Below are positions 1-12,808 of a stretch of 64,000 bases of DNA, piece after piece; within the stretch, counting starts at the first letter, position 1; each line of letters starts with the position of its first letter. A program made the translations under genes and the position numbers. This stretch comes from Candidatus Latescibacterota bacterium (GTDB lineage Bacteria; JAAXHH01), in assembly GCA_012270975.1 (NCBI GenBank), contig JAAXHH010000148.1, positions 1 through 64,000 on the forward strand, in the 5' to 3' direction. Under the pieces are notes generated by a model. That model had not been told where the DNA came from, did no database searches, and was given only the letters and a program-made list of their open reading frames with translations.

Positions 1-778
1 GTCCACAAAAACGGGGTAACTTCAATCTCTTCAAGATCTCTTCGTTTTCATCTTCTATCTGCAACTGTTTGCCATTGCATTCTATTATGATTTGAAACTC
101 ATCAGCGGTTTCATGTTTAGCGATTTTTGAAATAGGATCAGTCAGTGCAGAAAGGTCTTTAACCAGTCTGCTCACTGCTTTCATACTCCATACCCCTTTT
201 GTCTTACATATTTCAATCTTTGTCCCATGAGTCTGTTGTATCGTCTGAGGCGGTGAAGATTCTGAGTAAAGAACTCTTATCTCATCCAAGAAAATGTCCT
301 TACTTTCACTTTGTTCTTCCGTAAACTCGGAATCGTATTCTGTAAAATCATGAACTAATACCGACTCAAAATCCGTATCTCTGGTCCGAGTTGTTACAGT
401 TATGTAGCTACCTAGTTTTAGTAGCGCAAATCGCCCTATACCCTTTTCACCCTGTACAATTCTCTTCTTACCGGATGTTGTTCTGTTTCCCTTTCGCTTT
501 CTGATGTACTTCTGAGGATTAGCTGGATTCATCCATGATTCACGTATCTCTGCGGGATTCATACCTTGGCCATCGTCTTCGACGATTATCCGGGAATCGT
601 TATTCGCCGACATATCTTCATTAAATGAGTCAAAACAAACTCTAACCCAGTTCGCGTCCGCGTCGTAAGCATTCTTTATTAACTCAAGCAGAGCAACCCG
701 CTCATTCTTTATGAGCTGCTCACTGAGCATGGTCAATAGTCTTGCATAGGGCCTTATAGGCAGTTCGGTTGTTTTCAT
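1..778 (-). CDS. GHKL (HSP90/MutL/MORC-type) ATPase, C-terminus outside window
   Basis: The reading frame starts at ATG 778 and stays open to base 2, giving 259 visible residues. The Bergerat ATP-binding fold is clear: an N-box around residues 24-41 (ELIKNAYDADANW), the G1 box VEDDGQGM near residues 67-74, a GEKGIGRF lid/G2 motif near 110-117, and a THGTKIEI segment that fits the last ATP-site motif. There is no signal peptide or histidine-kinase dimerisation domain. The start codon overlaps the stop of the methyltransferase gene as ATGA, so translation is probably coupled. Base composition is much more AT-rich than the rest of the window. GHKL ATPases of MutL/MORC type are known partners of restriction-modification loci (Iyer, Abhiman and Aravind). 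Membership of that group is an inference because the C-terminal domain is missing. Confidence 0.85.
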   Translation of the reverse strand, partial: MKTTELPIRPYARLLTMLSEQLIKNERVALLELIKNAYDADANWVRVCFDSFNEDMSANNDSRIIVEDDGQGMNPAEIRESWMNPANPQKYIRKRKGNRTTSGKKRIVQGEKGIGRFALLKLGSYITVTTRTRDTDFESVLVHDFTEYDSEFTEEQSESKDIFLDEIRVLYSESSPPQTIQQTHGTKIEICKTKGVWSMKAVSRLVKDLSALTDPISKIAKHETADEFQIIIECNGKQLQIEDENEEILKRLKLPRFCG

Positions 779-2028
779 CTTTTCCTACCAATCACCACGT
801 ACTCTTCGTTATAGACCTTTCTTTCCGATGAATCCCTGGTGAAACGACCCTTGGAATCCCGATACGGTGTCATGATCTTCAACGATACTTTTCGTTTTAT
901 AACCTCAATATCCACAAAGTGTGATATTACCATACATTCTCTTAAGTATCCAGCATTGTCTATCGTTACACCTTTGTACTCCGTGTTTCCAATCACAAAC
1001 ACCGCTAGTCCATCGTGGTTTAACAAATGCCAGCATTGGTTGGTAGTTTTCTGTAAATCCATGAAATATCGAATGACCGAAGCCGCTTTCCCACGGTCTA
1101 CCTGCAATAAATCACGATACGTTTCTACACTGGAATTGCAGAGATTGTTTAAATCGGTGTCCTGTGGCGGTTTGATGCCGTACTGATTACCGATCATGTT
1201 TTTCCTTAAGTCCCGATAGTCTGTAGCAAAACCAAGCCACAGTGCGGACAACTGGTGTAGATCAGCATAGTTGTAGGAGACAACATAGGGCGGACTCGTG
1301 ACGATTAAATCTGCCACGGGTTTCTGCAGACGCGTGGATAGAAAGTCTTTTGTTACAATCGATGTTTTATGGTTTTTCCGCCGTGTGAATGCCTCCATAC
1401 TACTTTTGTTGGCTTTTTGCATCATTTGAATTTGACATTCGAATGCATCCATGACGTCATGTCGCGATTTGTTCGGATCCACTTGTGCCTTAATTGATTT
1501 TGTTAGCCATTTAGAAGTCGATTTCAAGATGTTCGAGAACGCGCAAAGAAAGAACTTCCTGTACTTACTGTTACTAGGAACTATAAGCTTGATTGCTTTC
1601 TGTAATCTAAGCAGATCATCGATGTTCTGATCTTCGAACCAGTACCTTATCCTGTCATTGACACGCTTATAATCATCCTCATCAGTGCACACCGTATAAA
1701 ACATATTTTTGATATTAGTGAAGTATCTTGCCAACGTGGATTCGCAATAATCCCTTGATTTGACCTGTGCGATCAGGGTAGCCACAGGATTGATGTCGCA
1801 TCCCCAGAAGTTAATTCCTTTTTTCTTTGCTTCAACCGCAGTTGTCCCACATCCGCAGAAAACATCTGCAACCGTATGGACCTCTACACCCTTTGCTTGA
1901 GCATATTGTAGTGCTTTAGTCGTAATGAATGCGGGAAACTTCGCCGGATAACTGTGTATCCTGTGTATAGGATCTTCCCTATCTTCGGCAAAATCCCAGA
2001 AAGTGGCAGAATCAACAGGTTTGATCAT
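775..2028 (-). CDS. DNA methyltransferase (N6-adenine/N4-cytosine type)
   Basis: This 417-residue protein is a SAM-dependent DNA base methylase. Motif I is DVFCGCG at residues 55-61, followed by an acidic CDIN motif near 77-80. The catalytic motif IV is TSPPY at 244-248. Motif I precedes motif IV with about 185 residues between, which probably hold the target-recognition region. An N-terminal YPAKFP motif at 27-32 is shared with several phage-defence methylases. A GAGGT ribosome site lies 7 bases before ATG 2028. The gene is AT-rich like the coupled ATPase downstream and unlike its GC-rich neighbours, so the pair looks transferred. No nuclease gene is visible; it could lie beyond the left edge. 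Confidence 0.88.
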   Translation of the reverse strand: MIKPVDSATFWDFAEDREDPIHRIHSYPAKFPAFITTKALQYAQAKGVEVHTVADVFCGCGTTAVEAKKKGINFWGCDINPVATLIAQVKSRDYCESTLARYFTNIKNMFYTVCTDEDDYKRVNDRIRYWFEDQNIDDLLRLQKAIKLIVPSNSKYRKFFLCAFSNILKSTSKWLTKSIKAQVDPNKSRHDVMDAFECQIQMMQKANKSSMEAFTRRKNHKTSIVTKDFLSTRLQKPVADLIVTSPPYVVSYNYADLHQLSALWLGFATDYRDLRKNMIGNQYGIKPPQDTDLNNLCNSSVETYRDLLQVDRGKAASVIRYFMDLQKTTNQCWHLLNHDGLAVFVIGNTEYKGVTIDNAGYLRECMVISHFVDIEVIKRKVSLKIMTPYRDSKGRFTRDSSERKVYNEEYVVIGRKR

Positions 2029-2115
2029 TTGTTAACCTCGAATCCAAAGAACACGTACCAATACTCTATGTCTGTATACTAAAGAATTAGACTGATTCTA
2101 GGTTTCTATCTCGTG

Positions 2116-3777
2116 TTATAGGTCACGTTCCCCCACCTCCACCCTTTCCGCCCGGTGGGTCTTCCCATCCTGCAGGAACAGGAAGTGACTCACATCCCCC
2201 ATCTCGTCCCGGACGAAGGTGATCCGGGCGTCCTCTACTTCCAGGTAGAAATCGCCTGACGATTCGAGGATGAGTTCGCTCCTGGGCTGGCCGGGCGGCT
2301 GGCCGTATAGCTTGCCGTCGCTGTAGGTGATGTCCACGGTGAACTCGGGAGAGAATTCGTAGGTGCCGGTGCAGGCCTCGTAGGCGGCCTCGGTCATGTG
2401 CACGGTCTTCTTCGGGGGCGGAGCCAGGGGGTTCCGGGCGCTCAGCAGGTGGAATCCGATGTCTTCGACGCTGGCCGAGCTGTTGGACAGGACCACGACG
2501 CCCTTGCGCCACTCTTTGAGGAAAGCGGCGAAGGCGTAGAACCCGTTCGTCCGGCCGGTGAGCCAGTGGATGTCGCGGTCTCGCGTGTCCTTGCGGACCT
2601 TCCAGCCCAGCGCGGTCTCGACGCCCTCTTCGTCGGTCGGTTTCCTGGCAACGATGAGGCTGTCGAAGGAGGCGTGGTAACGGGTCGAGTCGTCTTCGGT
2701 GAAGTCCTCCGGCAGCGCGTAGATGATGTTCATGTTGGCCGATACCAGGGTCATCAGGTCGTGGAGATTGGACCGCAGCCCTGTCCCGCCCACAAGGGTC
2801 GTATCGGACCAGGCGGGCACGGGCCGGCGGGTGTCGTCGTGTCCCGTCGCCAGGTACGTCCGCATGGACGGCGAAGGCGCATTGGCCGTGTTGGCCAGCT
2901 TGATGGGATCGCTAAGCAGTTCCCGGATCAGGTCGTCATAAGATTCGCCGGCCGCCCGTTCGAGCACGTGTCCCAGAAGCCCCATGCCGAGATCGGAATA
3001 CGCATAGCGGTCTTCCATCTCGAAGGGATCGTCCGCATCGTAGCGGTCTTCCATCTCGAAGGAGTCCTCTCCTGCCGAATCGTCTCCTTCCCGATCGCCA
3101 GAATCCAAGAGGGGCTCCTGCCCGTCGCGCTGTGAGTCGGCATACCGGGCGAGGAACGCGTACATCAGTTCCACCGAATACCCCTTCAGCGGATCGTCCG
3201 GATCGTCCGAAACCAGGTTGTCCGGCAGGCGGGGCAGTCCCGAGGTGTGGGTGGCGAGGTGCTCTATCAGGATGGGGCGTCCCGCAGGCGTGGCCGGTAC
3301 GGTCACCGTGTCCGGAAGATAGGCGGACACCCGGTCGGTCAGGCTGACGTCGCCCCGCTGGACCATGAGGGACAGCATGGCCGTCGTGTACAGGCTGCTC
3401 AGCTGGCCGATCTCGAAGACCGTCATGGCGCTCACGCGGCGTATCGTGCCGCGGTTGAGCGTGCCGTGGGCGTAGACGTACCGGTTGATGCCGCGGATGA
3501 TCCCGGCGACGACGCCCACCGTCTGGCCGTATTCGTCGACACGCTCCCGCAGCACGCGCTGCACGGGATCTTCTTCCTCGGCCTCATCCGCGCCGGGGCT
3601 TCCCGCGGTACCGGACGAACTTCCTCGCGTACCCTGCGCGTAGGCGGCTTCCTGTGCGTACACCGTGCCTTGCGCGCGTGCCGTATCCAGTGTGTACGCC
3701 ACCATCGACAGGGAGAGCGTTAACATCACACCGGAACGACACAGCCACGTTAGAAAACAACTCGAGGATAACCGCAT
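2116..3777 (-). CDS. Exported serine beta-lactamase-like protein with degenerate catalytic motifs
   Basis: The fold is that of class C beta-lactamase/DD-peptidase-like serine hydrolases (Pfam Beta-lactamase). ATG 3777 is preferred because GGGAGAG precedes it and an N-terminal signal segment follows; a start at 3834 is also open. The three catalytic motifs look damaged. The SxxK box aligns with Q-L-S-S at residues 125-128, losing both Ser and Lys. The YxN box is Y-S-D at 260-262 and is kept. The K/HxG box reads L-T-G before RTNGF. An acidic 12-residue repeat (FEMEDRY) sits directly before YSD. The protein may be a non-catalytic binding relative. A separate C-terminal domain of about 100 residues, common in this family, follows. 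Confidence 0.8.
   Translation of the reverse strand: MRLSSSCFLTWLCRSGVMLTLSLSMVAYTLDTARAQGTVYAQEAAYAQGTRGSSSGTAGSPGADEAEEEDPVQRVLRERVDEYGQTVGVVAGIIRGINRYVYAHGTLNRGTIRRVSAMTVFEIGQLSSLYTTAMLSLMVQRGDVSLTDRVSAYLPDTVTVPATPAGRPILIEHLATHTSGLPRLPDNLVSDDPDDPLKGYSVELMYAFLARYADSQRDGQEPLLDSGDREGDDSAGEDSFEMEDRYDADDPFEMEDRYAYSDLGMGLLGHVLERAAGESYDDLIRELLSDPIKLANTANAPSPSMRTYLATGHDDTRRPVPAWSDTTLVGGTGLRSNLHDLMTLVSANMNIIYALPEDFTEDDSTRYHASFDSLIVARKPTDEEGVETALGWKVRKDTRDRDIHWLTGRTNGFYAFAAFLKEWRKGVVVLSNSSASVEDIGFHLLSARNPLAPPPKKTVHMTEAAYEACTGTYEFSPEFTVDITYSDGKLYGQPPGQPRSELILESSGDFYLEVEDARITFVRDEMGDVSHFLFLQDGKTHRAERVEVGERDL
3005..3064 (-). repeat. 36-bp in-frame tandem duplication inside the beta-lactamase-like gene
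   Basis: The 24-base block TAGCGGTCTTCCATCTCGAA plus GG and beyond begins at 3005 and again at 3041, a period of 36 bases or 12 codons. It encodes two adjacent copies of an acidic FEMEDRY segment, the second running straight into the YSD active-site motif. Confidence 0.85.
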
Positions 3778-3836
3778 GACGCCAAACTCTCCCAGTGCGC
3801 TCGGTACGCTCAATGAACCCGGTACGTTCAGCACGC

Positions 3837-10387: not shown

Positions 10388-12808
10388 CTACCGTTCCATG
10401 ACCAGGAAGTTGACCGATTTGGATACGGTGCTTCCCGCGTTCTGATCGGTCAACGTGACGGTAAGCACGTACTCACCCGCAGGCAGGCCAGAGGAATCCA
10501 GCGATGTGTACTCACGGTCCTCGGTCGCGTATCCTTCTCCCGAGAAAGCCATCATCACCGCCTGCATGTCTCTTTGCCCGCGGGCTGACCAGCCACGCCG
10601 TTCATAACCGTACAGGGGATTGATCTCGTAGAGGATCTCGTACCCGGTTTTCCCGTCCTGATCCTGAGCCAGATTGTACAATTCGTAGTAAACGTAAACG
10701 GGATTCCCGCGAATGTAGAGCCGCCCCGGATTGGGCGTGATGTTCAGCCCGTTGCGCACGAATGGACCCTGTACGCCTGACGGCGCGATCCGGGTGGCCA
10801 GCTTGAGGCCGCTGATGAGCAGTTCCTCCCCGCTGTAATCGGACAGGGTGACCGGTTTGTGATACACCCCGATCCTTTGCGAAGTTTCATCCCGCACCTG
10901 GACCGCCAGTGTGAAGTTACCCACCGGCGCGACGACGCTTTCAGGCAGGGTATACACCGGGACTTTCACGTGACTTTCGGCTATCGTCCGTTTCGGCCGG
11001 TCGAAGGGGCCGAAACCGAACTCGTGGGTGAACTGCGGGCTCAAGGTCGAATCGCGCAGGGTGACCAGGTGCGCGAGACGGGTGCTGTTCCCCCGTCCGT
11101 CCGATACGTCGCCGAATTGCCACACGGGTATGCTGTAGGACAGATCCAGTTCGGTTGCGCCATTGTCCGCCCGGAAGGTCACCGCGTCGAAAGCATATTC
11201 GAGCCATTCCCCGCCAAAGTCATGCCGGTATTCCTCGGGAGCTTCCGCGATCAGTTCCTCGGCGAGCCGCCGGGGGCTGAACCGTTCCTGCCGAACCGCT
11301 TCCTGCTGGTTCGTCAGGAGGTTTCCCCAAGGGTAATCGAACCTCCCCCCACCGAACTGGTCGACGAAGAACAGTTCCAGGCCATACCGGGCGTATACCC
11401 AGCTTTCGGTAGCGTAACCATGCCCCATCAGTTTTCTCTCCCCCTGTCTTCCCAGGTCCGATCTTGATGCGACGATTCCGTCGGCCAGCAATCCGCCAAC
11501 CTCGTTTATTTCTTCTTCGGTAATCCCCTCGGGCGGAACAATCGTCAAGTAGCCCCGGTCGACACGCAATTGATAACCGTACCGGGCGTTCTGCTCGCGG
11601 ACCGCATCCACTGCCGCATCATCGGAAACAGTAGCCCCTTGATAGGCATTCCGATCTGCGATATAGACGTCGCCGCGGCGGTTTTCCGGCTCGCCGAAGC
11701 GGACGTATATCTCGCCGCGGCGGTCGTAGGGGTGCTGTCCCTGTGAAAAATGGTACCGGGCATATATTACACGACGGTAATGCTCCATGAGGCGTTCGTT
11801 CACCGCGGTGGCGGGGTTTGGATCCCTGGCGTTCCAGAAGGCACGCCAGCGCGCATCACGATCGGTCCCGCCGGCTTCCTCCCAGGCGGTCAGTTCGTCG
11901 GGAGGAGCTACGTGCGCCAGGTCCCGGTAAACCTTCTTTTCATCAGGGTCCAGAAGGGAAATGTACGTCTCAAAAGCCCCATGCAGCACGTCGGGTCTAG
12001 AATTCGCGTCTTCGGACAGCGTGCTGAATTGTGTCAACAGGGTCCGAACTATCGTTGAACCCGATTCGCCCAGGTCATCTCCGGTCCGTTCGAGCAACTC
12101 CACGGCCAGGCCATACCTTTCGGTGAGAAGGGCCAGATAGAGGAAACGACTGAGTGCGTCGTAATGGGAGGGATTAACCCTGAACTGTGAGATATATGCC
12201 GCCATCGCCTTGTCGAATTCAGGCGATTCGGGCAGTTCGTAACAGCGGCCGATCTGAAAATACGCATCGGGATGGGCAGGATCCAATACCGCCGCTTTGA
12301 GGAAAAAGGTCCGGCCGTCCCGGCCGCTGCCCAGAATCCGGTCGGTCTTTCGCGGATTCATATGGGCGATTCCCAGATGGTACTGGATTTCCGGGTCGTC
12401 AGGCGAGAGCCTCGCCGCCATGCGCAGAGCTTGACGCGCGTCCAGTCTGCGATGGTCCATCTGCAGATAGGTTTTGCCCAGTCCCACGTAGCCAGATGCC
12501 CAGTTCTCGTCCAGTTCGACCGAACGCTTGAACGAACTTACCGCCTTCCGGTAGTCTGCGAGTTCGAAATAGGCCATGCCCTGCCAGTAATGAGCGGGCG
12601 CCGAGCCTCCTTCCTCCTCAACCGCCTGCTGAAACAGCGCCAGCGCTTCCTGGAACCGTTCAGCTTCGTAAAGCGCCTTGCCCGTTTCCAAGGGAGAGTT
12701 TTGTTTTTTTTCAGGAACCGGACTCGCAGACGCAGGCAGGGCCAGTATTTGGTCCTGTAGAGTACAGATCACCACGGCTAAAACGAACAGTAGGTAAAAT
12801 TTTGACAT
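10388..12808 (-). CDS. GWxTD-domain protein with N-terminal TPR repeats
   Basis: The start at ATG 12808 gives a signal peptide (MSKFYLLFVLAVV). A GTG start at 12859 would bury it. Residues about 45-260 hold tetratricopeptide repeats (ALYEAERFQEALALF, ADYRKAVSSFKRSVELDENW). The GWxTD module follows, recognisable by RWRAFWNARDP, NERLMEHYRRVIYA and DRRGEIYVRFGEPENR. The C-terminal third is beta-rich and ends in an Ig-like region that describes stress-response style strands. GWxTD proteins are found mainly in Bacteroidota-related lineages and have no established biochemical role. Its location next to envelope permeases fits a periplasmic or cell-surface function. Confidence 0.82.
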   Translation of the reverse strand: MSKFYLLFVLAVVICTLQDQILALPASASPVPEKKQNSPLETGKALYEAERFQEALALFQQAVEEEGGSAPAHYWQGMAYFELADYRKAVSSFKRSVELDENWASGYVGLGKTYLQMDHRRLDARQALRMAARLSPDDPEIQYHLGIAHMNPRKTDRILGSGRDGRTFFLKAAVLDPAHPDAYFQIGRCYELPESPEFDKAMAAYISQFRVNPSHYDALSRFLYLALLTERYGLAVELLERTGDDLGESGSTIVRTLLTQFSTLSEDANSRPDVLHGAFETYISLLDPDEKKVYRDLAHVAPPDELTAWEEAGGTDRDARWRAFWNARDPNPATAVNERLMEHYRRVIYARYHFSQGQHPYDRRGEIYVRFGEPENRRGDVYIADRNAYQGATVSDDAAVDAVREQNARYGYQLRVDRGYLTIVPPEGITEEEINEVGGLLADGIVASRSDLGRQGERKLMGHGYATESWVYARYGLELFFVDQFGGGRFDYPWGNLLTNQQEAVRQERFSPRRLAEELIAEAPEEYRHDFGGEWLEYAFDAVTFRADNGATELDLSYSIPVWQFGDVSDGRGNSTRLAHLVTLRDSTLSPQFTHEFGFGPFDRPKRTIAESHVKVPVYTLPESVVAPVGNFTLAVQVRDETSQRIGVYHKPVTLSDYSGEELLISGLKLATRIAPSGVQGPFVRNGLNITPNPGRLYIRGNPVYVYYELYNLAQDQDGKTGYEILYEINPLYGYERRGWSARGQRDMQAVMMAFSGEGYATEDREYTSLDSSGLPAGEYVLTVTLTDQNAGSTVSKSVNFLVMER

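Follow-up and report, generated by a model that had tools for sequence, protein, structure and literature searches.

What are two AT-rich genes, one for a DNA methyltransferase and one for a GHKL ATPase, doing at the left end of a 64,000-nucleotide stretch of Candidatus Latescibacterota bacterium DNA (contig JAAXHH010000148.1; the whole stretch is called the window here)? An earlier note had proposed the pair, at 1..2100, as a candidate uncharacterised defence system. Our analysis identifies it as what is left of an acquired operon for an amino-methyltransferase, a MORC-type histidine kinase and a receiver-domain protein, in which an insertion element interrupts the kinase gene, and we hold this identity and architecture with high confidence. 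"Uncharacterised" holds only in part: a two-component-like system of this kind, linked to restriction-modification (R-M) genes and built on HEF_HK and Response_reg_2 proteins, is described in the portions consulted of a 2021 paper (PMC8011034). New here are a predicted MazF/CcdB toxin fold in the regulator and a Cys-Asp pair in that predicted domain across the three branches sampled. Our best overall explanation, a phosphorelay that is coupled to methylation, has a toxin-like output and is inactive in this genome, appears to us about evenly balanced between right and wrong.

An intact methyltransferase gene and a truncated ATPase gene

The methyltransferase gene (775-2028, minus strand) is intact and encodes 417 amino acids. 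Its product carries FCGCG as motif I and, as the earlier note had read it, TSPPY as motif IV, and it matches both the N6_N4_Mtase family (E = 5.5e-11) and the PADLOC model MTase_II (E = 3.5e-45 over residues 11-402). It is of the amino type, modifying either N6-adenine or N4-cytosine; a search of PDB sequences returned a single brief match, to MboIIA (E = 7.8e-4, 30 residues), that does not distinguish between these two bases. The overlap with a GHKL ATPase gene is equally real: an open reading frame (ORF) at 2-778 on the same strand shares the ATGA at 775-778 with the methyltransferase ORF and matches HATPase_c_3 (E = 2e-20). The last eight residues of this frame are not ATPase, because bases 1-24 are the repeated end of an insertion element, and the left limit of the gene is base 25. 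What remains (25-778, minus strand) is the 5' part, codons 1-251, of a gene for the MORC/Hsp90-type ATPase of a hybrid histidine kinase, with the ATP-binding motifs present and the kinase half missing. The observed gene pair is sound, its left limit is not. Its deviant composition was also read correctly, with a G+C content of 0.419 over 25-2028 against a mean of 0.623 (standard deviation 0.032, lowest 0.516) in 120 overlapping segments of two kb each from the rest of the stretch.

The ATPase gene is cut by the insertion element after codon 251, since homology to relatives ends where the multicopy repeat begins. This repeat (1-24) is the terminal inverted repeat of the element and also ends the contig: C108, in an assembly of 160 contigs, stops at base 1, and nothing lies to the left of it. 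A 22-base core of the repeat has 22 exact copies in the same genome, against none for a reversed control; by known coordinates 18 of the 22 lie at most 215 bases from a contig end, and clipped loci suggest three more. Where such contig ends extend further inward, they enter the coding sequence for a transposase C-terminus (rve_2, rve_3), presumably of IS3 type. With the repeat at no fewer than 18 contig ends, the element seems a main cause of the breaks in this assembly.

The idea that the missing half sits on another contig of the genome was rejected. A protein search of the assembly with the C-terminal half of the kinase from a relative, L014, found nothing better than weak hits to parts of it in other frames, the best with E = 6.1e-7 over 69 residues, and a search with the DNA downstream in G007, a genome of the same genus, brought back just those pieces that C108 already contains (of 50 first-look candidates, 40 were scored). 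The kinase half may have been lost, or it may fall in a gap of the assembly.

The complete operon in relatives

A scan of species genomes returned 253 matching stretches, of which the best 80 were used, so that the sample leans to close relatives. With G007 and an Allorhizobium pseudoryzae plasmid (L013) added to the scanned genomes, 42 loci form one close branch. An amino-methyltransferase match lies upstream on the same strand in 40 of them; it is missing from L022, which is cut by the contig start, and from L051, which has none in 6 kb, and it seems disturbed in L029 and L056. A receiver-type gene follows the kinase in 36 of the 42 loci, and the other six either end within the kinase frame (L029, L039, L042, L048) or have kinase frames that stop early (L043, L056).

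In these relatives the ATPase is a protein of about 750 amino acids in which the MORC/Hsp90-type module is fused to a histidine kinase core, and its gene stands between those of the methyltransferase and a response-regulator-like partner of about 400 amino acids. HATPase_c_3 at the N-terminus and HATPase_c at the C-terminus were found in all 30 kinases of a set termed A2, and in that of G007; the window keeps the N-terminal one only. The search of the ATPase C-terminus for a known domain, recommended in the earlier note, thus ended at a histidine-kinase catalytic domain. Of the note's MORC/MutL-like ATPase, the MORC-type GHKL character stands, but a stand-alone MORC does not, as the relatives continue into the kinase, and a continuation into MutL was rejected at 17.2 bits against the 180-bit cut-off of TIGR00585. 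The note had also allowed that the system may continue past the left edge, which is true of the relatives and not of this assembly. The predicted fold of the L014 kinase matches MORC3 over residues 8-468, a module of which the window holds only part.

The residues of a phosphorelay are kept, both the His of the kinase and the receiver-domain Asp of its partner being invariant. Numbered as in L014 and L015, these are His543 and Asp69. The H-box, in a region missing from the window, reads His-Asp in 39 of 39 branch kinases against His-Glu in 34 of the 39 other kinases of the tree set. In the tree itself (78 kinases of at least 450 amino acids), the 39 testable members fall on one side of a branch with a support of 100 by the Shimodaira-Hasegawa-like approximate likelihood ratio test, in a quick reconstruction with no bootstrap and with long branches, where the joining of L085 with the HEF kinases may be spurious.

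Conservation does not extend to a fourth gene. The most frequent neighbour, a second methyltransferase, occurs in 7 of 40 loci (27 with at least 1.5 kb on the given side). This methyltransferase-like gene lies beside the operon on the opposite strand in L013, L025, L033, L042, L045, L046 and L072. A large methyltransferase gene adjoins the operon in three other loci, L016, L017 (where it is HmaB-like) and L024, and L016 and L024 have an ATPase gene beside it as well (PDC-M07A and MADS3-like in L024). The surroundings of these three loci resemble a defence island, the setting in which the earlier note had suggested looking for the gene pair. The ATPase part has matches in 91 plasmid records, none of them reaching 60% identity, and of these the Allorhizobium plasmid alone also matches the regulator.

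An intact copy at the same locus in the genus

The same-genus genome G007 (locus L131) has an intact operon, with a methyltransferase of 417, a kinase of 734 and a regulator of 392 amino acids; the window's methyltransferase is 91% identical to its counterpart there and the ATPase 80% over the shared part. The G007 operon occupies the same locus, the 3' end of a conserved gene that we take to be serine-hydrolase-like, and is flanked by 158-bp direct repeats of that 3' end (L131:5443-5600 and 10394-10551, 95% identical). Its G+C content is 0.418, against 0.648 and 0.607 outside. The ORFs of at least 90 amino acids between the repeats are the three operon genes and frames antisense to them, and none is recombinase-like (smaller ORFs were not searched).

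The operon is absent from the locus in all seven other genus mates inspected (G001-G004, G006, G008 and G010); the flanks are continuous in six of these, and the next gene differs in G004. Close copies of both genes adjoin in one of 11 genus mates, G007 alone, and a core-genome pair was accordingly rejected, in line with the earlier note. The operon is acquired DNA, patchily distributed in the genus. G011 has a methyltransferase match at 54% identity, and distant GHKL matches (29-32%) lie elsewhere in G003, G006 and G011. In G011 (L158:1-2266) the gene immediately after this methyltransferase is a different one, presumably GHKL-like, an arrangement in which the methyltransferase may swap ATPase partners.

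Between the window and G007, identity is about 90-97% in the methyltransferase and 71-80% in the kinase part from about base 750, with a sharp fall, from about 93% to about 74%, within 748-848, at the boundary between the two genes. This pattern suggests a mosaic operon, with kinase modules as if exchanged under a constant methyltransferase. The ratio of nonsynonymous to synonymous substitution rates (dN/dS) against G007 is 0.16 for the methyltransferase (dS 0.23) and 0.07 for the ATPase part (dS 1.95, near saturation).

Relation to known systems

In the portions of PMC8011034 (Bellieny-Rabelo et al. 2021) examined, a kinase with HATPase_c_3, HEF_HK and HATPase_c stands beside a Response_reg_2 receiver protein near R-M genes, C5 methyltransferases are conspicuous among the neighbours, and the system is related to paraMORCs. 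Its Fig. 5 legend names an N6/N4-Mtase as one of the neighbours, so the occurrence of amino-methylases close to such genes had already been observed, and its section 10 offers, as speculation, a role for the domains in the control of R-M systems.

The present operon resembles that system in its upstream methyltransferase, its kinase with HATPase_c_3 and HATPase_c, the adjacent receiver protein, and an H-box in which the core His precedes an acidic residue; the two kinase profiles align nearly end to end (probability 100, E = 4.6e-46). It differs in its fixed partner, an amino-methyltransferase here and a C5 enzyme there (one locus, L020, has a weak C5 match of 46 bits beside the amino-methyltransferase), and in having His-Asp where His-Glu is the rule. 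The HEF_HK domain (PF19191) was found in none of the 30 kinases at E up to 1, and a search of the G007 kinase, up to E = 0.1, did not find it either. For the regulators we used a set termed A1, which holds 29 of the 36 found (L013, L014, L022, L031, L041, L047 and L131 were left out, some as cut or disturbed). The G007 regulator scores 29.4 bits with Response_reg_2 (PF19192), above the cut-off of 27; none of the 29 passes it, four matching at E up to 1 (best E = 0.011, 16.3 bits), and the L014 regulator reaches 20.9 bits. Five of the 29 match OKR_DC_1_N instead (best E = 5.3e-4). A profile comparison of A1 with two HEF regulators (probability 50.8, E = 1.6e-4) is suggestive only. Because the kinases lack HEF_HK, and because the G007 regulator passes the Response_reg_2 cut-off while those of A1 do not, the operon is, as judged from these profiles, a variant of the R-M-linked HEF_HK / Response_reg_2 kind, on a separate branch, and not a plain member.

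The typical system is present in the same genus: G004 carries a C5 methyltransferase, an HEF_HK kinase (102.2 bits) and a Response_reg_2 protein (113 bits). Such systems, with a C5-type methyltransferase, lie at L156:3924-10105 in G004 and at L157:4290-10541 in G011, and near them is a gene that we take to encode a Vsr-like endonuclease.

Prokaryotic MORC ATPases (paraMORCs) in R-M operons are treated in the consulted part of Iyer et al. 2008 (PMC2292703). As in those operons, a GHKL and S5-type module here adjoins a DNA methylase, with a MORC3-like fold in the relative L014; unlike them, the module is fused to a histidine kinase core, and the partner is a receiver protein rather than a helicase or nuclease. 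The type II restriction enzymes BbrUII and HgiDII (NF050001) share the N-terminal GHKL region, to which the window fragment matches at 68.7 bits (E = 3.7e-19) and full-length L014 at 79.8 bits over residues 15-245, far under the 550-bit cut-off. The PADLOC model REase_II likewise matches the window ATPase (E = 2.2e-8) and, partially, the L014 kinase (E = 8.5e-12), which also matches PDC-M43B (E = 2.2e-4, residues 603-746). An ATPase with a C-terminal nuclease of the BbrUII/HgiDII type was nevertheless rejected, since the C-terminal half in relatives is a histidine kinase. NF050001 has four matches in the window's own genome and is also found in 13 of 14 control genomes, so these matches are uninformative. 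The GHKL-Shedu protein VcSduA, or paraMORC3 (PMC12137116, in the part consulted), is similar in its N-terminal GHKL ATPase and phage-defence setting, but it has a Shedu nuclease domain and is a single protein without a methyltransferase or receiver partner. Among the open-licence papers listed in our literature searches we found neither a MazF-type output for these regulators, nor the amino-methyltransferase branch as such, nor phage data for it.

A predicted toxin fold in the regulator

The C-terminal domain of the regulator is predicted to adopt the toxin barrel fold of MazF and CcdB. Within this putative barrel a Cys-Asp pair and an Asn are invariant and an Arg is nearly so, in a motif of the Arg-Pro/Ala-x-Cys-Asp type, and the Cys-Asp pair is common to the three branches sampled. 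Were this barrel a toxin armed by a phosphorelay, the shared Cys-Asp motif would make it the output that the HEF_HK, C5-linked and amino-linked branches have in common. No output domain is assigned to the regulator in the portions of PMC8011034 examined, or at the terms searched for in it; the output of these R-M-linked systems was thus left open there, and the fold prediction makes it directly testable.

Several results weigh against a toxin-like output and the signalling built on it. Foldseek alone returned nothing for the regulator at E ≤ 0.001 (best 2.3e-3; best MazF 3.2e-3), and none of the 29 regulators matched the MazF/PemK or CcdB Pfam families at E up to 1. The regulator profile matched neither one plasmid PemK in a profile comparison nor any PDB sequence at E up to 1. 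One regulator of the 29 has a weak match, below the cut-off, to the DNA-binding domain MADF (E = 0.073), which would suit a plain regulator. Barrels of the MazF type are not necessarily toxins, and the domain differs from MazF, PemK and CcdB in its own motif and its fusion to a receiver. The kinase model has middling confidence (predicted local distance difference test, pLDDT, 74.7). Finally, neither the receiver gene nor the kinase half turned up in the assembly of this genome, so that their function in it has to be inferred from relatives.

Proposed mechanism and alternatives

Gene order, phosphorelay residues, the MORC-type module and the predicted barrel, all from sequence and models, are the basis of the mechanism that we propose; sensing, triggering and a killing role are what we infer from them. 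In working copies the methyltransferase would mark the host DNA, and the N-terminal MORC/Hsp90-type clamp of the kinase would sense DNA whose methylation state is wrong, whether alone or complexed with protein. By closing, the clamp would activate the C-terminal kinase core, and the core would phosphorylate its invariant His; from there the phosphoryl group would move to the Asp, likewise invariant, in the receiver domain of the partner. The C-terminal domain of the MazF/CcdB fold would then be freed or activated and would stop growth or damage the invader. The unit would operate like restriction or abortive infection, with a phosphorelay in place of a nuclease. We regard this full mechanism as tentative and, on balance, doubtful.

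Its most specific form is a phosphorelay suicide switch, in which a MORC-type clamp kinase reads the marks of its own methyltransferase and arms a toxin-fold regulator by His-to-Asp transfer; we consider this form unlikely. If true, it would amount to restriction-modification without a nuclease, with a toxin held in check by dephosphorylation rather than by an antitoxin protein. More broadly, the acquired unit suggests a switch that monitors the marks on DNA and may serve in defence. A MORC ATPase upstream of a phosphorelay would also be a simple setting for asking what the MORC clamp senses; animal and plant MORC relatives act in silencing (PMC8011034, section 10). In the present genome, where the insertion element breaks the unit, signalling through it has probably ceased: we expect a silent relay, and because the kinase half is missing from the assembled gene, the methyltransferase is probably solitary.

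The kinase and response regulator could instead control the methyltransferase and a restriction enzyme encoded elsewhere, with a non-toxic barrel that binds DNA or protein. This is close to the speculation in section 10 of PMC8011034, within the part consulted, and the order of methyltransferase, kinase and regulator genes kept in the branch would suit it, as would the regulators' lack of MazF, PemK or CcdB family matches and the single MADF match. It is opposed by the want of a conserved fourth gene and by the predicted toxin fold of the output domain, and no DNA-binding family reaches its cut-off among the 29 regulators; we find it somewhat unlikely.

Quite unlikely, in our judgement, is an R-M system whose nuclease activity resides within one of the proteins, in the regulator barrel or the middle domain of the kinase, rather than an RNA or gyrase toxin. 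The invariant Cys-Asp and Asn and the nearly invariant Arg of the barrel could form its active site, VcSduA (PMC12137116, in the part consulted) is a known case of a MORC-type ATPase that has a nuclease domain, and the restriction-enzyme models NF050001 and REase_II match the N-terminal part. Those models, however, cover the GHKL region only, and nuclease-like families give just single weak matches among the 29 regulators (TOP6A-Spo11_Toprim, E = 0.1, and DUF4258, E = 0.66, in one regulator each), and PADLOC assigned no family to either of the two regulators run against it. It is very improbable that the window pair is itself a complete unit, a methyltransferase and truncated ATPase kept for a new role after the kinase half was lost for good: both frames are open and their dN/dS is low, but the ATPase fragment stops inside its MORC-like module at the end of the insertion element, and its low ratio can date from before the insertion. 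The reading that we prefer remains a phosphorelay coupled to methylation and ending in a toxin-like output.

Flanking DNA and distant matches

Between the operon and the host gene lies a leader (2029-2115, minus strand) that is probably the promoter region; it is partly conserved in G007, with 77-89% identity in the comparison windows that include it. The host gene (2116-3834, minus strand), the one taken above to be serine-hydrolase-like, stands at the insertion boundary outside the system and is matched in 10 of the 11 genus genomes searched, its own included. Its 3' end at 2135-2291 (minus strand) matches the 158-bp repeat that flanks the intact G007 operon. PADLOC also gave a weak NsnC match (E = 0.015).

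Two distant matches lie on other kinds of replicon. A short unannotated contig from a fecal sample, recorded as "Bacteriophage sp.", encodes a 46%-identical ATPase part (MT837790.1:2041-2664). A distant relative on a conjugative plasmid of Campylobacter jejuni (L159:4992-9445) has a kinase and a response regulator, followed by a C5 methyltransferase on the other strand.
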